This document shows positions 177 to 8,655 of a stretch of DNA of 8,655 nt, piece after piece. The translations under genes and the position numbers were made by a program. The notes beneath the pieces were generated by a model. The model had not been told where the DNA came from and searched no databases. It saw nothing but the letters and a program-made list of their open reading frames with translations. The DNA lies in NCBI GenBank assembly GCA_020634495.1, contig JACKBR010000099.1, forward strand, positions 1 through 8,655, written 5' to 3'. The number at the start of each line of letters is the position of its first letter. Position 1 is the first letter of the stretch. Source of the DNA: Ardenticatenaceae bacterium. Lineage in GTDB: Bacteria; Chloroflexota; Anaerolineae; Promineifilales; Promineifilaceae.

Positions 177-884
177 ATGACAAACTCTTCTAGCACAACA
201 TTACAAGAAAAGCTCTATGAGAACAGAGTTGTTATTGGCAATGTTATTGCCTTCCTCGGATTTGTACTCGTGTGGGTAGACCCCTATGCCCGGGTGACGA
301 TGCCCCGCCTGCTGGCAGGGGCTTTTATTGGCGGTGCCGGTTTTGGGCTGCGAGTTTGGGCTTCATCTTATCAGTGGCCCAATATTGCCACCGCCCAACC
401 AGATTCACGAACGGGGTTGCTAACTGCCGGACCATATGCTTATTTGCGCCACCCGATTTACCTGAGTATATTCTTGCTGACCGCTGGGGCTTTTCTGGCT
501 TTTGGCTCGTGGTTAGCTGCGCTGGTTACGGTCATTCCTACTTATCTAGTGAATTGGTGGCAAGCCCGCTATGAAGAAGGTTTTTTGAGGGAAAAATACG
601 GCCGTGAGGCAGCCGAGTACCAGCAGCATTTACCCATGTTTATTCCCAACCCTTTCAAACCGTATCCGATTAGAAACGGGCAGTTTGCCCTGGCCCAAGG
701 TATCAAGCACGATATTGGGCCGTTATCGGCGTTTGCTTGTTTCATTGTGTTGATGCTGGTTGTGACGTTGGTGCAGCCACCCACCTTGCCGTTGATCCTG
801 GGTATCCTGGTAGGCTCTATCTTGCTTAGTTTTGTGCTTGTTTGGTTGGTGCGGCGCGTCTTTAAGGAACAGCTTTCGCTATGA
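177..884 (+). CDS. isoprenylcysteine carboxyl methyltransferase / phospholipid methyltransferase family membrane protein
   Basis: This 235-residue membrane protein has the hallmark of the ICMT/PEMT superfamily: GPYAYLRHPIYLS at residues 85-97 (the GPY-x2-xRHP-x-Y block). A second conserved block follows at 132-156, with YEE at 132-134, KYG at 140-142 and a P-x-FIP ending. In characterised relatives these build the SAM pocket, and the enzymes methylate lipid or prenyl-type substrates at the membrane. Hydrophobic segments lie at about 20-36, 44-60, 95-125, 181-200 and 204-226. The last two form a C-terminal extension beyond the usual catalytic end. The start is the only reasonable ATG after upstream stops, and no good Shine-Dalgarno is seen. 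The gene overlaps the next one by 4 bp (ATGA), indicating translational coupling. The substrate is unknown. The family call is secure, but the specific enzyme is not. Confidence 0.85.
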   Translation: MTNSSSTTLQEKLYENRVVIGNVIAFLGFVLVWVDPYARVTMPRLLAGAFIGGAGFGLRVWASSYQWPNIATAQPDSRTGLLTAGPYAYLRHPIYLSIFLLTAGAFLAFGSWLAALVTVIPTYLVNWWQARYEEGFLREKYGREAAEYQQHLPMFIPNPFKPYPIRNGQFALAQGIKHDIGPLSAFACFIVLMLVVTLVQPPTLPLILGILVGSILLSFVLVWLVRRVFKEQLSL

Positions 885-2614
885 AGCAATCTAAGTGGTC
901 AGCAACTCTCATTTTGCTGTTAGCGGCCACAGGGTTTCTCTTGTGCATCATTCCAGTGATTCATGGCGGGCGAACGGCCGTTGTGGTCACATTACTCCAT
1001 CTGACTATTAGCGGGTTGCTTATTCTTTGGCTGGTTCCCTTTTTGTGGCAACATATTCGTCAAAAACGTCGCTTCGTTTTTATTCGCCCTGGTCAAATTT
1101 TGCTGCTGCCTGTTTTGTTAGTGATGGTAGCCAGTGGCGTTTGGCTCACTATTGCCGGTCAGCAACAACAGAATGCCTGGTTTCATACGCTTGCTGGCGT
1201 GGTGCTTATTCTGCTTTTGCTGTGGCATGCCCAGTCTGTGCTGGGGACCATTTTTACTAAATGGCTGCTTTGGGGACTGGCCTTGCTCATGCTATTAGCT
1301 TTGGGGGCAACCTGGCTAGAAAATGAGGCACGGCCTCAATCCGTCCTCGCGCAACAATATGCTCAGACGCCTGTGAGGCTGCTGGGACCCTTACCCCCCT
1401 ACAATGCAGACACCATGTCGCCGGATAGGTGTGCTGAGTGCCATGCTGAAATTGCTAATGAGTGGCAGCAATCGCTCCACTCGGTAGCGGATGTTGAGTT
1501 GATATATTCCCGGGTGGTCAGCCAATTTCGGCGAGAGCATGGCATAGAGGCAAGTAATTATTGTGCAGGCTGTCATAGCCCATTGCGGATGGCTCGGGGA
1601 CAGCTTGATCGCAATATTGCTCAGGCTGATCAGGCCAATGTGGATTGCCTGGTTTGCCACAGCATCCAAACCATTCACCAGCCAGTAGGGAATAATTACG
1701 CTGACCTGAAGGTGTGGCAAACAAATAGCTATGATTGGCGTTGGCCTCAGTCTGTGGCTGACCGTTTTTTGCTGATGCAACCGGAGGCTCACAAAGCGCA
1801 GTGGAACGGCCCTATTATGCAAGAAAGCCTGTTATGTGGCAGTTGCCATCGCCAGATCTTGCCAGCATCATTATCTGGGGGGCCAGAAGACTTGGTTTTG
1901 CAGGATACATTCGCTGAATGGCAAAACAGCATCTATAATAACGACGATGTGACGGAACGGCGTACCTGCCAAGATTGCCACATGTCTACAACTGAAGGTA
2001 GCGGGACTAAATATAGCCATTTATTTGCCGGTGTGAATACAGATGTGGCGCAGATTATGGGGTTTCATGATTTGCATCCGGCGCAGCAGGCGCTTATGGA
2101 AAAAGCGGCAACATTGGAGGTGACTGCGGATGGTTGTGAACAGGGGAACATTAATCTGTTAATAACGGTAACTAATTCTGGCACCGGGCACAATTTACCG
2201 ACCGGGGTAACGGACTTACGACAGATATGGTTGGAGGTAACGGCCGTAAATGAGCAAAACGCCATCGTCTTTCAAGCTGGCAATATCAACCAGGCAGGAG
2301 TCTTAGACCCTCAGGCAACTATATTTCATGCCGTTCTTGGTGATAAACATGGGCAGCCAGTTTACTTCCATGATATAATGCGTGCCCGTCAAATCTTGGC
2401 AGATACAACTATCCCACCAAAGGCTTCACACCAGTCAAATTACCAAATACCTGCCTTAGAAAACCAGACTTTAAACATCACCGCCAAACTACAATACAGA
2501 CTTATTCCTCAAAACTTTGTGAATTATTATATGGCGGCCAATTTACGCTTTCGGGTGATCACTATGAATAGTGAATCACTTCAAATAGACGTTCCGAAAA
2601 TTTGTTCAAATTAA
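881..2614 (+). CDS. membrane-anchored pentahaem cytochrome c with N-terminal b-type-like helix bundle
   Basis: This 577-residue protein has three parts. (1) Residues 8-146 form about five transmembrane helices. His40 and His57 bracket one helix and His102 and His116 another, each with an H-x3/4-G start (HLTISG, HTLAG), as in small cytochrome b561/DUF4405-like bundles. They could hold b haems, but this is inferred. (2) Residues 180-370 carry five CxxCH haem c sites: CAECH 184, CAGCH 228, CLVCH 256, CGSCH 319 and CQDCH 363. His200, His266, His304 and His380 are possible distal ligands. This resembles the cytochrome c554/multihaem family, and the domain should lie outside the cytoplasmic membrane. 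(3) Residues 410-577 form a beta-rich domain with TGHNLPTG at 435-442, seen in related multihaem proteins. The likely role is electron transfer between the membrane quinone pool and an outside partner. It shares an ATGA overlap with the preceding gene, and the next gene follows 19 bp later. Confidence 0.88.
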   Translation: MKQSKWSATLILLLAATGFLLCIIPVIHGGRTAVVVTLLHLTISGLLILWLVPFLWQHIRQKRRFVFIRPGQILLLPVLLVMVASGVWLTIAGQQQQNAWFHTLAGVVLILLLLWHAQSVLGTIFTKWLLWGLALLMLLALGATWLENEARPQSVLAQQYAQTPVRLLGPLPPYNADTMSPDRCAECHAEIANEWQQSLHSVADVELIYSRVVSQFRREHGIEASNYCAGCHSPLRMARGQLDRNIAQADQANVDCLVCHSIQTIHQPVGNNYADLKVWQTNSYDWRWPQSVADRFLLMQPEAHKAQWNGPIMQESLLCGSCHRQILPASLSGGPEDLVLQDTFAEWQNSIYNNDDVTERRTCQDCHMSTTEGSGTKYSHLFAGVNTDVAQIMGFHDLHPAQQALMEKAATLEVTADGCEQGNINLLITVTNSGTGHNLPTGVTDLRQIWLEVTAVNEQNAIVFQAGNINQAGVLDPQATIFHAVLGDKHGQPVYFHDIMRARQILADTTIPPKASHQSNYQIPALENQTLNITAKLQYRLIPQNFVNYYMAANLRFRVITMNSESLQIDVPKICSN

Positions 2615-2621
2615 TTTATTT

Positions 2622-2628
2622 AGGAGGT
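2622..2628 (+). promoter_or_regulatory. strong Shine-Dalgarno for the HDO-like gene
   Basis: AGGAGGT lies 5 nt before the ATG at 2634. It is one of the best ribosome binding sites in the window. It shows that the gene's proper start is 2634, upstream of the in-frame TAA, and not the internal GTG at 2877. Confidence 0.8.
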
Positions 2629-2633
2629 TTTCC

Positions 2634-3401
2634 ATGTCAACGATTCGTCCTGCTGTGAGTGCTGAAGAGGCCAAGCGCATTGCTAAAAGTTATGAGGAAA
2701 TGGCCTATCGACTTTATGAAGAACGTCTGTTCAACCATCCCCTAATACTAGGTATGAAGGATGGGACAACACCAGATTATCAAATCAAGGGCTTCTTATA
2801 AAACTGGTATACCTTTGCGCAGGAAGTCAATACGGCCGCTTCCACTATCTACCATCGTTTCATCTCCTGGTTCAAAGTGCATCGAGAACTAGAAGAATTA
2901 ACCCTGGATGTTATCGCTGAAGAATTTAGCCATCCGGGTCCAGGTGGCCATATCCGCACGATCCAGCGCACCTGTGAGGCAGCTGGATTAACACTAGATG
3001 AAATCGTTCATGCTAAACTCGTGCCTGAAGCACGCGCCTGGGTAGATTTTCACGTTCGTCTGCTTACCGAAGGTACCCTAGCAGAAACCGCTGCTGACTT
3101 TATTTGTGAAGGTGCATTTGGCCACTTTGCCAAAATACTATTCGAGGTTTTAACAACTCGGTATGGGTTTACTCGCCAGTCGGCTGATTATTTCCGCGAG
3201 CACTATGAAGCTGATGCGGTTGGCACAGAAGATAAGCTACCTCACGGTGAGCGTGGCACGCTCATGCTCCAGGCATTACTGGAAGAAGGGATGCTGGAGG
3301 AGCGTACTGGGTGGGGAGTAGAATACACGATTGATATAACCGTATCTATGTTTGAGCTGTTGCTGGATGGTATCCTGCGGCGCTATCCGGTAGAGGGTTA
3401 G
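2634..3401 (+). pseudogene. haem-oxygenase-like (HDO/TenA/PqqC fold) enzyme interrupted by in-frame TAA
   Basis: From ATG 2634 the frame is protein-like on both sides of a TAA at 2799-2801 (codon 56), then open to TAG at 3399-3401. The full product would be 255 residues, a normal length for haem-oxygenase-like diiron oxidases and TenA/PqqC relatives. The stop falls inside a hydrophobic helix (GFL-stop-NWYTF), so a TTA-to-TAA change (Leu) is a simple origin. Candidate metal ligands in full-length numbering are E97, H106 (nine residues on), E159, H190 and D194. The usual last His of the H-x3-D-x2-H helix is Gly197, and H204 is the nearest alternative. Known HDO enzymes (SznF, UndA, CADD) oxidise amino-acid-like or fatty-acid substrates. 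The substrate here is unknown. A shorter product could restart at GTG 2877 (174 residues) and would keep the listed ligands but lose the first helices. Alternatives are a sequencing error, or an inactive or non-metal homologue. The family call is moderately sure. Confidence 0.65.
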
Positions 3402-3430
3402 TTCAGTGTGGTGCAGGCAAAGCTATAAGC

Positions 3431-3437
3431 AGGAGGT
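3431..3437 (+). promoter_or_regulatory. Shine-Dalgarno that fixes a TTG start
   Basis: AGGAGGT sits 9 nt before TTG 3447. No ATG or GTG in this frame is better placed, so the UbiA-family gene most likely begins with TTG. Confidence 0.7.
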
Positions 3438-3446
3438 AAAGGGATA

Positions 3447-4484
3447 TTGACTCAAAAAATAGATGAGAGTTACCATTTTTTAGATGTTCTGACACACCCT
3501 GCCAGATCCACGAATGTTCACCTGAGGGACGTCATTCGTGGCTGGTGGACAACGAGCCGAATGGAATTTTTGCCGGACGCCTTCGTTCATATAGGGCTTC
3601 CTTTGTTGTTGGTTCTACACCACGAGCCCTGGAGTAGCAAACTGCTGTTGCTTTCCTTTTGGGGTGGGGTGGTATGGTTTATGGGCCACTGGGTTGGCTC
3701 ATCAATCAATTGCCTAGCAGATTACCCACTTGATCGCCTGGATACGCAACACAAGGCGAGGTTGGCAAAAGCAATTGATGAAGCGGGTATGCGATCCATT
3801 TTGCTGGTAAATTTGGCAGAAACGCTCCTGGCAATTGTTGTTTCTGTCTGGTTGGCTATTCAATTAAACAAACCCCTGCTCATTATTTTCTGGTTCACAG
3901 GGCTAATTATTGCCACACTGTATTCTTTTGAACCGGTTCATTTCAAGCGTCGCAATTGGCTCAATCCGATTGCACTAGATCTGATCGTGTATGCGATGCC
4001 TTTGTTTTTTATCTATCATGTTCTCTCACCTGTTTGGAATGGATTTGATGTGGCGGTGCTTATTATCTACTGCTTCCAGATGGTGCCTATGTTTTTGGTC
4101 GATGAAGTGAGTGATCATGATGAGGATAAGGCACTGGGTATCTATAATCCGTGTGTAACATACGGCCGTTTTAAAGTAAGTTGGCTTGCCAACAGCATTT
4201 ATATCCTTGCCTGCCTGGCTTCGTTAATCGCTTATGTGACCCAAACAGAAATCTGGTCCTTTACTCGCCTTGTAATGCTTGTACTGGCTGTATTGGCCTA
4301 TGCTTGGGTTGCCCGCGAGTTTGTTCTGCTAGCGAAGCATAGCCAATTAATTGCTGAGGCCTCAAACGAGACTGAGCGGGAGAAGCGGAATTTGGCCCTG
4401 AAAAACTTTTCCAAAACACCAGCCTGGTTAGTGGGAACAAGCATTGGGGCTTTGCTTCTGGCTGTGGCCGAAACTTTTTTCTAA
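3447..4484 (+). CDS. UbiA-family prenyltransferase
   Basis: This 345-residue polytopic membrane protein has about eight hydrophobic segments. Both acidic, Mg-diphosphate-binding motifs of the UbiA superfamily are present. The first is N88-x3-D92-x3-D96-x2-D99 (NCLADYPLDRLD). The second is D219-x3-D223-x-D225-x-D227 (DEVSDHDED), followed by KALGIYNP. The loop YSFEPVHFKRR at 159-169 matches the family's YS-x-PP-x-x-x-K region. These enzymes transfer a polyprenyl group to an aromatic or other acceptor in quinone, chlorophyll, haem or archaeal-type lipid synthesis. The acceptor cannot be told from sequence. The first motif is irregular compared with the usual NDxxDxxxD: the position after Asn is Cys, and the Asp spacing differs. 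It starts at TTG behind a strong Shine-Dalgarno. The downstream methyltransferase begins 2 bp after its stop, so the two are probably translated together and may act on the same product. Confidence 0.85.
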   Translation: MTQKIDESYHFLDVLTHPARSTNVHLRDVIRGWWTTSRMEFLPDAFVHIGLPLLLVLHHEPWSSKLLLLSFWGGVVWFMGHWVGSSINCLADYPLDRLDTQHKARLAKAIDEAGMRSILLVNLAETLLAIVVSVWLAIQLNKPLLIIFWFTGLIIATLYSFEPVHFKRRNWLNPIALDLIVYAMPLFFIYHVLSPVWNGFDVAVLIIYCFQMVPMFLVDEVSDHDEDKALGIYNPCVTYGRFKVSWLANSIYILACLASLIAYVTQTEIWSFTRLVMLVLAVLAYAWVAREFVLLAKHSQLIAEASNETEREKRNLALKNFSKTPAWLVGTSIGALLLAVAETFF

Positions 4485-4486
4485 AA

Positions 4487-5128
4487 TTGAGCAAGTATCA
4501 AGCAGGTATTGGCTATAATCCCACCAATCGACCCGACGGCTTTGATTGGGATGGATTTTGGGCATTTACCAGTAAGCAAGAAGGGTTTAATCGTTTGCTG
4601 TATGCTGTTCATTTTCGGCACTATATTCGGCTGCTTAAAGGAATTTTGCCGCCCAATCCACGAATTCTGGAGCTGGGTGCCGGTTCTGGCATTGTAGCCC
4701 GGCGCATATCCCAGCAGTGGGGCGGCCGACTTACCCTCATTGACGCTAACCAGGCTGCTTGTGAACGATACAAATCTCTGCGACAACCTCACGAGCCTAT
4801 CGATTATGTGCAAGGGGATGTGTTTTCCGTGAGTTTCCCTCCCGTGTTTGATTTAGTGTACAGCGACGGGTTAATTGAACATTTTCCAGTTAAGGATACA
4901 GTTATTGCGGCTCATTTACGGCCTCTAAAACCTTCAGGTCACGTGCTTTTGTTTGTCCCCAATAATTCTCTGTTTTTCCGCACATTAACTAAATTGGGTC
5001 CAGATTTTGGCTATGAGGAACGTTACACGCTTTCGGCTCTCATCACACTTTGTGCTGATTATGGCCTGAGTGTCTTACGTCAGACGCAATATCCATTTGC
5101 TGTAGGAGTTTTATGCCAAAAACAGTGA
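4487..5128 (+). CDS. class I SAM-dependent methyltransferase
   Basis: This 213-residue soluble protein has a Rossmann-type methyltransferase core. Motif I is ILELGAGSG (60-68). The acidic residue ending strand 2 is D86 (LTLIDAN). D111 (QGDVF) lies near the adenine site, and motif IV is FDLVYSDGLIEHF (121-133). A strand at 152-159 (HVLLFVPN) follows. The family includes O-, N- and C-methyltransferases of small molecules such as UbiE/UbiG-type enzymes, and the substrate is not readable. The start is TTG at 4487, only 2 bp after the prenyltransferase stop. There is no separate Shine-Dalgarno, so translation probably depends on termination-reinitiation. The 3' end overlaps the next gene by 16 bp. 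Its position directly after a UbiA-family gene favours methylation of the prenylated product, as in quinone pathways. This is an inference from context. Confidence 0.82.
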   Translation: MSKYQAGIGYNPTNRPDGFDWDGFWAFTSKQEGFNRLLYAVHFRHYIRLLKGILPPNPRILELGAGSGIVARRISQQWGGRLTLIDANQAACERYKSLRQPHEPIDYVQGDVFSVSFPPVFDLVYSDGLIEHFPVKDTVIAAHLRPLKPSGHVLLFVPNNSLFFRTLTKLGPDFGYEERYTLSALITLCADYGLSVLRQTQYPFAVGVLCQKQ

Positions 5129-6237
5129 CCTCAACTTGCGAGATTCCCTTACGGACTCTTAACTTATACATCTTACGCAAGCAGTTTTTGCTGCCGGAAT
5201 CGGCTGCAACAGATGTTATGCAAGTGACAGAACATTTATTGGGACTTCATGCAAAACGTCCGCAAACACCTTATCTGATGTTGCAAGCACGGCTGCCTGA
5301 TTTTTCAGCCCAACATCTTGATGATTTGCTGTACCAGCAGCGCGTCCTGTTGCGGGCCCATGCGATGCGTGGCACAGTTCACATGCTCCCGCTTTCACAA
5401 TATCGCATGATACTGGCAGCCACGGAGGACCAGCTGGACGGTATGTACCGGCGTGCTTTCAAACATCTGGATAACATGCAGGCAATTATCGATGCTATTC
5501 TAGACGCAGTTCAGCAGCAAGGTGCACTGCTGATTGAAGAGATTATGGCTGCACTGCCGCTGGAGGTAGATAGCCGTGATCTTTACCGCCTGGTTAATTA
5601 CCTGTGTACAAATGGCATTTTGGTCAAATCAACAGTCAAAGGAACCTGGCGCAATAGCGTTTATCGGTATCAGCTTTTGACCGAATGGCAACCAAATATC
5701 CCGAACCACGATTGGGATGTACTACCGGCGCAGGCCAAGCTTATTGAAGGGTACCTGTTTGCTTATGGCCCGGCCACAATAGATGATATTGTATGGTGGA
5801 CGGGTCTGACAAAGACAAAGGTCAAAAAAGGGCTGAACTCTTTGGGGGAAAATTGTGTCTCTGTCTATTTTGAGGCGCTTGCCGATGATGCCTATCTGTT
5901 ACAAGACGATTATGAAGCTCTGGTAAAGTGGCAGCCACCCGACGAGACACAAATTACGTTCCTACCCAGTTTTGATGCTTATGTAATTGCTTATATCAGG
6001 CGTGAACGATTAATAGATGAAGTTTACTACGATCTTATCTTCAGAGGGGTCGCCGGCATTATCGAACCGGTTGTTCTGCTGGACGGCCGTATCATTGGTA
6101 CCTGGAAGTATGCGGTTGACGGTGATTGCGTGGCAACTGAATTATTTGTGCAACCCAAAGGTATAGAAGACGCATTACACAAGGCCAGCCACAAAACAGC
6201 TCAATTTCTGGAGTTGGCAGATGCCAGCACACAATAA
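5113..6237 (+). CDS. AlkZ/YcaQ-like winged-helix DNA-binding protein (HTH_42 family)
   Basis: This 374-residue protein follows the HTH_42 family order. An N-terminal winged-helix part contains LLGLHAKRPQTPYLMLQARL at 42-61, then RAHAMRGTVHMLP (81-93). A middle winged helix spans about 205-245 (AYGPATIDDIVWWTGLT). The C-terminal barrel contains FLPSFDAYVIAYIRRERL (283-300) and DGRIIGTW (324-331). Characterised members are DNA glycosylases that excise bulky alkyl adducts or unhook crosslinks: AlkZ protects azinomycin producers, and YcaQ (AlkX) is the housekeeping form. As I recall, the catalytic motif is Q-x-Q or Q-x-D. At the matching place here, residues 46-48, the protein reads H-A-K, so activity cannot be assumed. 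An AGGAG at 5104-5108 lies 4 nt before the ATG, inside the previous gene. The possible role is self-resistance or DNA-adduct repair. A regulatory or non-catalytic role is also possible. Confidence 0.8.
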   Translation: MPKTVTSTCEIPLRTLNLYILRKQFLLPESAATDVMQVTEHLLGLHAKRPQTPYLMLQARLPDFSAQHLDDLLYQQRVLLRAHAMRGTVHMLPLSQYRMILAATEDQLDGMYRRAFKHLDNMQAIIDAILDAVQQQGALLIEEIMAALPLEVDSRDLYRLVNYLCTNGILVKSTVKGTWRNSVYRYQLLTEWQPNIPNHDWDVLPAQAKLIEGYLFAYGPATIDDIVWWTGLTKTKVKKGLNSLGENCVSVYFEALADDAYLLQDDYEALVKWQPPDETQITFLPSFDAYVIAYIRRERLIDEVYYDLIFRGVAGIIEPVVLLDGRIIGTWKYAVDGDCVATELFVQPKGIEDALHKASHKTAQFLELADASTQ

Positions 6238-6255
6238 ATCAAAAAAGGAAACCTA

Positions 6256-7107
6256 ATGACAAAAGAATCGATTATTGCCAATATTCGAGAAGAGTATTTG
6301 CAGGATTTTTCATTTGCTGGGTCAACCGAGACATTTGTCGCCTCTCTTGATTCTCTCTTTGATCTTATTTATGAAGATGCGGTTGAGCGCTATTATAAAT
6401 CCCCTCCCTGGGATTTGCCCGGAGTACAGTTGGCTATCTGTTGTTTTTTATCCTGGGGAGAAGTAAGGTCTGTTGATGTGTTTACACGTCAGGCGGTCGA
6501 ATTGGGTTTTGACTATCCCGATCTGCGCCTGTTACTTTCCAAACAAATCTACGAAGAAATGGTTCACCATCAAATGTTTCGCAGAGCGGCAATTAAAATA
6601 GGTGGTGTTGATCCGCTAACGGTACCACCTCCGGCGGGAATCATGTCTATGTTCGATGCCTACAATGATGCGCTTGGAACAGACGATGTTCTAGAGAAAA
6701 TCTTCTACGGACAATTTTCCTCAGAAAGGGCTGCGATTCCTTCCTTCAAGCAAATTAAAGAATCTATGGCTGCCAGTCGGCGCGGCCTGCCGCCAGAGAT
6801 GAAAAAGGCTTTTGAGAGAGCCGAGAAAGATGAGCCCGGACACATTGCCGTGGGGCGTTGGGCCGCTGTGAAGCTTGCCGAACGAGGGGAAAAACAGCGT
6901 CAACGCATGTTGGAGCTGGCGCTCGACATTATTGGTATAACCATTAATTTATGGATTACTGAGACTAAAAATTATCCAGCTATCATCAAATTTGCTAGCT
7001 CGCTAGTAAAAGCGAAGGCAAAAGCAAAAATTGTTGGATTGCCAGAAGTTGATGATTCTGACTGGAACTTCTCTGTTGAAGACAATAGCTTCAAAAATGA
7101 AGGATAA
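6256..7107 (+). CDS. ferritin-like diiron protein, probable oxidase/oxygenase
   Basis: This 283-residue, mostly helical protein has a full ferritin-type carboxylate-bridged diiron ligand pattern on four helices. The ligands are E69 (WGEVRS), E101-x2-H104 (YEEMVHH), E157 (SSERAA) and E193-x2-H196 (DEPGHIAVG). This E, ExxH, E, ExxH order is typical of diiron oxygenases and oxidases such as AurF, MiaE, PaaA-like and R2-like proteins. At about 280 residues it is too long for a simple ferritin. The C-terminal tail has a Lys/Ala repeat (KAKAKAK, 252-258) and an acidic end. The reaction and substrate are unknown. In this operon it is a second oxidase fold beside the HDO-like gene and may carry a hydroxylation, N-oxygenation or desaturation step. 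Translation starts at ATG 6256 behind AAAGGAAA (6243-6250). It is the last intact gene of the operon, and no terminator hairpin is apparent after it. Confidence 0.8.
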   Translation: MTKESIIANIREEYLQDFSFAGSTETFVASLDSLFDLIYEDAVERYYKSPPWDLPGVQLAICCFLSWGEVRSVDVFTRQAVELGFDYPDLRLLLSKQIYEEMVHHQMFRRAAIKIGGVDPLTVPPPAGIMSMFDAYNDALGTDDVLEKIFYGQFSSERAAIPSFKQIKESMAASRRGLPPEMKKAFERAEKDEPGHIAVGRWAAVKLAERGEKQRQRMLELALDIIGITINLWITETKNYPAIIKFASSLVKAKAKAKIVGLPEVDDSDWNFSVEDNSFKNEG

Positions 7108-7267: not shown

Positions 7268-7277
7268 TCAGATTTAA

Positions 7278-7585
7278 CGCGACGTTGTTATTGCCATCGG
7301 CAGCGGCACAAATGTAGTGGTGGAATCTGCTGGGCTGATTCTGGTGCAGTCCAATCCGCTGGATATGGTAAAAATCATAACCTTGAGCAACGCCAGCCAG
7401 CGCAAGATGGTGCAAAACATCTGGTGGGCTGCCGGGTATAACATTGTTGTCATTCCACTGGCAGCGGGAATTCTAACTCCGTGGGCATCAACATGTCCCA
7501 GGCAGTGAGTGCCCTGGTGATATTCCCCTGCACGATTATTGTAGCAATTAATGCTCAACTGCTGCGCCGCGTATCATCTACCTGA
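7278..7585 (+). pseudogene. C-terminal fragment of a CopB-like heavy-metal P-type ATPase, frameshifted
   Basis: The fragment starts abruptly at [18 protein letters not shown] (7281-7334), the hinge region just before the last two transmembrane helices of P1B-type ATPases, where families normally read GxGTDVAxESA. It continues as a [13 protein letters not shown] block and [11 protein letters not shown] to about 7484. Homology then moves to the next frame ([13 protein letters not shown], then IIVAINAQLLRR, to 7570), with TGA at 7583-7585. The shift fits loss of one G in the GGG at 7483-7485. All upstream parts (metal-binding helices, actuator domain, DKTGT phosphorylation site) are absent. Intact CopB-type pumps export copper or silver. 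This one cannot function. It abuts the transposase remnant, which suggests that IS activity removed the 5' part. Confidence 0.8.
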
Positions 7586-7655
7586 GCTGAATAACCACCA
7601 AATGGCCTATGGGAAACAAACCATAACGCGCTATTTGTCGGATGCGTACAAACCT

Positions 7656-8181
7656 ATGATTAATGAGTCTCTGCGGCGACACTTTTTTGTGAATGAGAAT
7701 TTAACCATACGCTATCTAATTGTTTTGGCCTTATGGCTGGTTGGCAAGCAACCAGCCATAGACCCACTGCCGTATGTTGCGGATGGAACGGCCGTTCCTC
7801 TCAGACCTACCATTACGCCTGAAGAGATCAGCTTGGGAAAGGATGTTTACGTGCAAAACTGCGCCAGTTGCCACGGTGTGAACCTGGAAGGAGAGTCGAT
7901 TGGAAATCCCAGAATGAAGATGGCTTGTTTCGTGCGCCACCACATGACGCAAGTAGTCACACCTGGCACCAAGGCGACCCACCCTGCTGGAAGCAATTTA
8001 TGCTGGCAGCGCTGGTTTATCCGACATGAATGTTGGTGGTACAAGTAACATGCCTGCCTTTGCAGAAACCCTAAATGATGAAGAGATTACGGCCGTTTTA
8101 ACCTGCATCAAAAGCACCTGGTCAGAAGATATTCAAGATATCCAATGGGAGGCAACCCTACGTGAAGAAGTGCAGAATTGA
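7656..8181 (+). pseudogene. class I cytochrome c, broken by two single-base deletions
   Basis: Translation from ATG 7656 gives a hydrophobic leader (about residues 15-30, ending LWLVG), a linker, then EEISLGKDVYVQNCASCHG with the haem site CASCH at 7860-7874. Homology shifts frame at about 7896-7897 (DWKSQNEDGLFRAPPHD) and again at about 7979-7980 (TLLEAIYAGSAG). The third frame carries the methionine axial ligand region SNMPAFAETL (Met at 8050-8052) and DEEITAVL, and ends with TGA at 8179-8181. Each shift is explained by one lost base. The parts in order match a small membrane-attached monohaem cytochrome c of respiratory or copper-handling clusters. The leader looks like a lipoprotein signal, but the lipobox position has Lys31 where Cys is expected. 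The true start is uncertain, because the frame is open further upstream. No functional product is expected if the sequence is correct. Confidence 0.75.
7732..7760. repeat. perfect 12-bp inverted repeat in the cytochrome c pseudogene leader
   Basis: TATGGCTGGTTG (7732-7743) and CAACCAGCCATA (7749-7760) are exact complements around a 5-nt loop (GCAAG). It lies in the signal-peptide coding part, and the loop contains the Lys31 codon where a lipobox Cys would be expected. There is no T-run after it, so it is not an intrinsic terminator. Confidence 0.7.
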
Positions 8182-8233: not shown

Positions 8234-8271
8234 TGCTATCATTGCCGCACCGTGATGGATTTTGGCAGGAG
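8234..8271 (+). promoter_or_regulatory. candidate extended -10 promoter and Shine-Dalgarno for the restriction gene
   Basis: TGCTATCAT at 8234-8242 fits an extended -10 element (TGnTATnAT). The -35 region (about 8213-8218, TGCGCA) is weak. AGGAG at 8267-8271 lies 11 nt before ATG 8283. This intergenic stretch (8182-8282) holds no other visible feature. The promoter is a by-eye match only. Confidence 0.35.
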
Positions 8272-8282
8272 TACCCTGTTTT

Positions 8283-8655
8283 ATGTCTGGACCCAATGAA
8301 TCCCAAACAAGAAAACTGTACATAGACAAAGCGTTGGCCCGTGCTGAATGGCATGTGGATAATCCCCATCAGGTGGGTCTCGAAATCCCCGTGGATGGTT
8401 TTGCCCCCGAGGTATGGCAACGACTAAATCACAAGCTGCATACCCTCCGTGAATCCGGCGTCAGTTATGATGCGTCGCTGCCCAGCGGCATCAGCGACTA
8501 TGTGCTAAAGCGGCCGAATGGCGAGGTCATTGCCGTGGTGGAAGCCAAACGCACCAGTGTCGATCCCCGGCTGGCGCAGGTGCAGACCGAATTTTACGTG
8601 GAGGAAATTGAAAAGCGGCAAAGTTTTCGGCCGTTTGCTTTCATGTCTAATGGGC
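8283..8655 (+). CDS. type I restriction enzyme R subunit-like protein, N-terminal nuclease domain (3' truncated by window)
   Basis: The frame is open from ATG 8283 to the right edge (124 residues seen). It matches the HsdR N-terminal PD-(D/E)xK nuclease domain. SDYVL (71-75) supplies the first acidic residue, D72. E87-A-K89 (VVEAKR) is the ExK motif. Q101-x3-Y105 (QTEFY) is the QxxxY motif typical of type I R subunits. LARAEWHV (18-25) matches the usual start region. Full-length proteins continue into SF2 helicase (DEAD/H) motors and cleave DNA when partnered with HsdM and HsdS. Those parts are outside the window, so a solitary restriction helicase is also possible. By eye the base composition is more GC-rich than the operon upstream, and the gene follows a pseudogene zone, which suits an acquired defence gene. 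Confidence 0.8.
   Translation, partial: MSGPNESQTRKLYIDKALARAEWHVDNPHQVGLEIPVDGFAPEVWQRLNHKLHTLRESGVSYDASLPSGISDYVLKRPNGEVIAVVEAKRTSVDPRLAQVQTEFYVEEIEKRQSFRPFAFMSNG

Follow-up and report, generated by a model that had tools for sequence, protein, structure and literature searches.

Gene content of the locus

The window is the whole 8,655-nucleotide stretch of contig JACKBR010000099.1 (assembly GCA_020634495.1, Ardenticatenaceae bacterium), and the subject of this analysis is a set of five genes on its + strand, encoding a haem-oxygenase-like dimetal oxidase (HDO), a UbiA-superfamily prenyltransferase, an S-adenosylmethionine (SAM) methyltransferase, an AlkZ-like protein and a ferritin-like diiron protein. 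Gaps of 45, 2, -16 and 18 bases separate successive genes, as in a preliminary description made from the sequence alone, whose five + frames with very short or overlapping junctions were recovered (-16 to +45 bases). Its family labels for the HDO, UbiA, methyltransferase and AlkZ-like proteins were borne out by Pfam, but the HDO frame is interrupted rather than intact. With the two genes upstream, seven + strand genes span 177–7107, with junctions of -4, 19, 45, 2, -16 and 18 bases. The five-gene set and the features upstream of it are as follows.

2634–3401, + strand: HDO, interrupted copy (Haem_oxygenas_2, E 2.5e-10, in the part after the stop)
3447–4484, + strand: UbiA-superfamily prenyltransferase (PF01040, E 1.1e-14; TTG start after AGGAGG)
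4487–5128, + strand: class I SAM methyltransferase (PF08241, Methyltransf_11, E 4e-13; TTG start; motif ELGAGSG)
5113–6237, + strand: AlkZ-like (HTH_42) protein (PF06224, E 2.5e-56; H-A-K at the catalytic-motif position)
6256–7107, + strand: ferritin-like diiron protein whose family has no name (ligands E69, E101xxH104, E157, E193xxH196)
177–884, + strand: ICMT/PEMT-like integral-membrane methyltransferase (PF04191, E 5e-12; PF04140, E 1.3e-5)
881–2614, + strand: multihaem cytochrome c (five CXXCH motifs; PF13435, E 4.4e-8)
107–164, no strand assigned: inverted repeat containing runs of T and A (paired 29-base arms without a spacer, 79% complementary)

Among the matches listed in a literature search, no published description of this gene set was found.

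Probable recurrence of the core genes

Linkage was measured as exactly equal size of the longest contig between protein clusters (27 HDO, 47 UbiA and 28 diiron clusters); each cluster was represented by its longest contig alone, so that missing matches mean nothing. For the null, sizes were offset in both directions by 1 to 300 bases (600 comparisons). In the homologue search for UbiA, scoring was limited to the 7998 candidates with the most words in common. HDO and UbiA longest contigs were equal in size 11 times (27 × 47; shifted mean 0.098, maximum 2), UbiA and diiron contigs 4 times (47 × 28; shifted mean 0.098, never above 2), and HDO and diiron contigs 3 times (27 × 28; shifted mean 0.072, never above 2), with sizes of 11743 and 31836 bases found in all three lists alike. 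The possibility raised in the preliminary description, that the neighbourhood would be conserved nowhere else, is disfavoured on indirect evidence by the 11, 4 and 3 size coincidences where about 0.1 was expected for each, and from these identical sizes the HDO, UbiA and diiron trio is most likely a recurrent module. The UbiA–diiron pair at 36369 bases comes from the window's own species or a close one. Contigs of 21967, 31611 and 22230 bases likewise carry members of these clusters, and P0077, P0033 and P0008 have one contig size in common. Only a few relatives bear a name, and these are metagenome-assembled genomes of Pyrinomonadaceae and Blastocatellia.

For a further pair at 3332 bases (UbiA P0036, diiron P0025), at most 1445 bases would lie between the genes, if they are on one contig and side by side. 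The corresponding distance in the window is 1771 bases and holds the methyltransferase and AlkZ-like genes, so that these two are probably not both fixed in the module.

Alignments were built for the diiron protein (A1, 21 of 28 homologues), UbiA (A2, 25 of 47) and the HDO (A3, 21 of 28), with the window protein added to A1 and A2 and the window piece to A3. Motifs were counted over 28 diiron, 47 UbiA and 27 of 28 HDO proteins, each with the window added; P0103 (110 amino acids, no contig data) was left out of the HDO counts, P0001 matches the window exactly, and P0027, P0028, P0099 and P0100 are short.

HDO protein

The protein has the haem-oxygenase fold, and the structures nearest to its model are those of CADD, PqqC and UndA. 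In the alignment with CADD, E97, H106, E159, H190 and D194 fall at positions of the three-His/three-carboxylate site; E97 is kept in 27/27 and H106 in 25/25 rows with letters, two relatives (P0086 and P0089) having a deletion at H106, and E159, H190, D194 and H204 are kept in 28/28. Three His and three carboxylates make up the HDO metal site, and about a dozen HDOs have validated functions, according to PMC13108848.

The CADD and NePabS self-sacrificing p-aminobenzoate synthases belong to the same superfamily, with CADD the closest to this HDO; the window protein differs in that the third His of its last ligand helix is displaced and that it is linked to UbiA. At the position of CADD Tyr27, the tyrosine sacrificed in p-aminobenzoate synthesis (PMC11965152), none of the 25 rows with letters has Tyr (I/M/T/V instead), and at that of Lys152, the amine donor, none of 28 has Lys (L/F/Y/C/W instead), a Lys two residues ahead being kept in 21/28. 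Because both sacrificed residues are missing, self-sacrificing p-aminobenzoate synthesis by this HDO was rejected, and the CADD-like formation of a p-aminobenzoate-type ring suggested earlier was dropped, even with CADD as the closest relative.

UbiA prenyltransferase

Both Asp-rich Mg/diphosphate motifs of PF01040 are present, as expected of the UbiA superfamily: N88, D92 and D96 occur in 47/47 rows with letters, D219 in 47/48, and D223 and D227 in 48/48. A second conserved block (W33, T36, S37, R38 and E40) is invariant in 48/48 rows. The gene has no sign of interruption or damage like that of the HDO; aligned with P0029 it has four differences, start residue included, and its departures from near-invariant columns, start residue aside, are common to P0029. 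Residue 58 (3618–3620) is His in the window and in P0029 and Arg in 45/48 rows. By analogy with archaeal UbiA, we take this to be a candidate acceptor-binding position.

The closest solved relative is the chlorophyll a synthase ChlG (E 8.4e-9), and the BchG model matches 26/26 UbiA relatives scanned. The ChlG/BchG branch thus supplies the best family and best solved relative and has the Asp-rich motifs in common, whereas the window protein falls far under all subfamily cut-offs, with 43.4 bits against 212.3 for the chlorophyll synthase model. The ebo operon, with its UbiA-type EboC, is likewise a conserved bacterial operon around a UbiA-type enzyme, its product being given as unknown in PMC5133447; its TatD-like, sugar-phosphate cyclase and phosphodiesterase families, by contrast, were matched by none of the nine window proteins scanned.

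On plasmids, two distant UbiA matches were found in Hymenobacter (23.1% and 23.9% identity), the first adjoining an isonitrile synthase gene. There, the gene at L001:7221–8987 carries the annotation TauD/TfdA dioxygenase; it resembles UbiA at locus positions 8001–8936 and may encode a fused dioxygenase–UbiA protein.

Ferritin-like diiron protein

The pattern E/ExxH/E/ExxH on four helices is that of ferritin-like diiron oxygenases, and it is present here, with E69 in 27/28 rows with letters, E101, H104, E157 and H196 in 29/29, and E193 in 28/29. In the structure model (maadcb4c9e959; predicted local distance difference test score 90), the helices span 57–83, 88–116, 145–171 and 180–208, and the structural matches are helical-bundle oxidase folds. 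Two results speak against a simple ferritin label, namely that HDO/PqqC/TenA folds outrank ferritin-like folds by Z, and that Foldseek gave no match for the model at E 0.001. The ferritin-like diiron reading was kept despite the fold ranking because the ligand pattern decides. In the relative P0016, His stands for E69 and Lys for E193, and its metal site may be lost or changed.

No Pfam family scored above its cut-off for the window protein (AurF, E 0.025; Rubrerythrin, E 0.073); AurF PF11583 reached 14.2 bits against 29.6, and at E <= 0.1 it matched 9/22 family members scanned (best E 0.0019). The extra His of AurF lies four residues before the Glu of the last ExxH. That position is residue 189 here, Ala in 6 and Val in 23 of 29 rows. 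In AurF the extra His gives a 3H/4C site (PMC13108848). AurF-like N-oxidation, a chemistry put forward in the preliminary description, is unsupported, the His being missing in 29/29 rows and PF11583 falling below cut-off in the window. The nearest kinds are the ferritin-like diiron oxygenases ADO, MiaE, VlmB, R2 and Coq7, with AurF as a special case.

Methyltransferase and AlkZ-like protein

The soluble methyltransferase matched BioC and UbiG best among NCBIfam models, both far under cut-off, and is to be classed from its sequence as generic. The AlkZ-like protein is strongly homologous to AlkZ/AZL DNA glycosylases (PF06224; AlkZ 5uuj, E 2.4e-15), but the catalytic Q-A-Q of AlkZ aligns to H46-A47-K48 in place of the (Q/H)-x-(Q/D) of AlkZ/YcaQ. 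PMC9040887 gives Q-x-D and (Q/H)-x-Q as AlkZ-type motifs, plus a rarer AZL2 variant, which H-A-K does not fit either. In YcaQ, Ala at either catalytic position abolishes excision and Asp to Asn does not, according to PMC7367128. The window protein may be inactive, altered or acting otherwise, and a role as an immunity glycosylase is weakly supported because H-A-K takes the place of the (Q/H)-x-(Q/D) motif of the glycosylases. Distant AlkZ-like matches were found in 28 plasmid records.

A proposed biosynthetic module

With moderate confidence, the locus is read as a conserved module with a core of HDO, UbiA and ferritin-like diiron enzyme, making a lipid or meroterpenoid that would be oxidised, methylated and prenylated. 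The three core families look catalytically intact, as judged from their nearly invariant ligands and motifs. In the proposed scheme, the HDO would oxidise a small substrate able to diffuse, probably an aromatic compound or one derived from an amino acid, and most likely make or prepare the acceptor; UbiA would attach an isoprenoid tail to this small acceptor at the membrane; the diiron enzyme would oxidise, most simply hydroxylate, the acceptor or the prenylated product; and the soluble methyltransferase, perhaps also the ICMT-like membrane methyltransferase, would cap the product. Step order, substrates and product are proposed from the gene set, motifs and predicted folds, which were observed directly, and from the co-occurrence of the core, given by identical contig sizes; both methyltransferases, the AlkZ-like protein and the cytochrome would be putative members. 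Because the cytochrome gene is adjacent, a redox role is a possible function and the first to consider. Of the compact route to an oxidised, prenylated, methylated molecule envisaged earlier, the core trio probably stands as a recurrent set, and the CADD and AurF chemistry is mostly unsupported.

An operon in which an HDO, a UbiA enzyme and an unclassified ferritin-like diiron enzyme recur offers a defined set of three genes for expression and assay. A redox lipid as product would add one more carrier beside the few known respiratory quinone types, and a meroterpenoid would bring HDO chemistry and prenylation together in a new combination.

Several results weigh against such a module. The HDO frame is broken by an in-frame TAA (2799–2801, codon 56), either a real nonsense codon or an assembly error; the piece after the TAA still has the ligand residues, and the orthologue P0076 (255 amino acids) has no interruption and 96% identity over 99% of the compared piece, which begins after the stop. 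In canonical spacing a third His would stand three residues after D194, where 25/28 HDO rows have Gly (197), so that the metal site is uncertain; H204 may replace this displaced His. The joint divergence of HDO and UbiA over the 11 shared-size contigs (Mantel r 0.93; 0/5000 permutations as high) speaks for the module, but is also expected from shared organism history alone, and linkage is read from contig sizes. No substrate-naming family model was found for the module proteins. In a one-genome-per-species collection based on GTDB (contigs of at least 3 kb), an exact-pattern scan covering the diiron protein only found no relative among 59 (protein) and 61 (alignment A1) pattern matches; viral contigs gave no relatives for A1, A3 and A2 among 14, 81 and 18 matches, respectively, and plasmids none of the diiron protein or of P0076.

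A narrower and bolder form, possible though doubtful, is that a quinone- or aminoquinone-like molecule is made, as a new redox carrier of isoprenoid type serving the upstream five-haem cytochrome, with the HDO and diiron enzyme replacing the flavin hydroxylases of ubiquinone type. Ubiquinone assembly uses UbiA, UbiG and Coq7, and the UbiA, UbiG-like methyltransferase and 4C/2H diiron enzyme found here parallel it; the cytochrome gene ends 19 bases upstream of the HDO, a P-type ATPase fragment lies downstream, and no carrier protein, regulator or intact transporter was found among the nine window proteins scanned with family models. That the pattern scan of the genome collection did not turn up the diiron gene speaks against a widespread core respiratory quinone, Pyrinomonas relies mainly on menaquinone-8 (MK-8) as its quinone (PMC4644332), and UbiA is nearer to chlorophyll synthase than to quinone enzymes, though far below all cut-offs. 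The modified quinone of the preliminary description is favoured by the neighbouring cytochrome and called into question by the first two of these points. Slightly more doubtful is the full version, in which uncultured Acidobacteriota and their relatives would use the operon to make a new redox lipid of isoprenoid type, the HDO and ferritin-like enzyme standing in for flavin hydroxylases and the lipid being wired to the cytochrome.

The other explanations are each improbable. A specialised meroterpenoid that reacts with DNA, against which the AlkZ-like protein would protect its producer as a glycosylase, the second product considered in the preliminary description, would fit the strong AlkZ homology and the enrichment of AlkZ-like proteins in Streptomyces biosynthetic gene clusters, several of them for genotoxins (PMC9040887). 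It is improbable given a motif that is neither (Q/H)-x-(Q/D) nor AZL2, with Ala substitution abolishing excision in YcaQ as cited above, the gap of at most 1445 bases if P0036 and P0025 share the 3332-base contig, and the nine scanned proteins, none of which is an intact efflux protein. That the genes are coincidental neighbours, independent housekeeping or accessory genes, is quite improbable; AlkZ-like and methyltransferase families are common and there is gene debris downstream, but the exact contig-size matches and the co-divergence already disfavour coincidence for HDO, UbiA and diiron, as distinct from the other genes. Very improbable is tetrapyrrole or chlorophyll-like chemistry, in which a methyltransferase, a diiron cyclase and a UbiA resembling chlorophyll synthase would act as they do in the late steps of bacteriochlorophyll synthesis: the BchG and ChlG matches favour it, yet the window UbiA reaches at most 43.4 bits against cut-offs of 212–436, no BchM or AcsF model appeared for the methyltransferase or diiron protein among the matches listed (only the Rubrerythrin hit), and the nine scanned proteins included no further pigment enzyme.

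Boundaries of the unit and flanking features

The transcription unit plausibly begins earlier than the HDO, with the ICMT/PEMT-like and cytochrome genes, which overlap by 4 bases, and the ICMT/PEMT-like methyltransferase is possibly its first gene. The CXXCH motifs of the cytochrome lie at residues 184, 228, 256, 319 and 363, and its N-terminal part, judged by eye, is hydrophobic and probably membrane-spanning. The inverted repeat upstream of the unit is probably a terminator; it is missing from the terminator-like sites of a separate site prediction, which gave 21 promoter-like sites in the window against 12.7 expected and 11 terminator-like against 9.1, and which was unused in interpretation. 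RNA families and tRNAs were not found in the window, and the diiron, UbiA and AlkZ-like proteins had no match in PHROGs. Anti-phage defence was considered and rejected: PADLOC matched two of the six proteins given, the methyltransferase (mad2, E 9.7e-15, methyltransferase part only) and an HsdR-like protein (REase_I, E 1.7e-12).

Position 7107 is taken as the natural 3' limit because of what follows it. At 7274–7540 lies a fragment resembling a copper-translocating P-type ATPase at its tail end (TIGR01511, E 1.1e-13 over 7317–7505), the rest of the gene being missing; at 7551–8180 a class I cytochrome c with a frame that, judged by eye, seems disrupted, through gene decay or sequencing errors; and at 8262–8655 the start of the type I restriction HsdR-like protein (PF04313, E 3.9e-6; PADLOC REase_I), which leaves the window.

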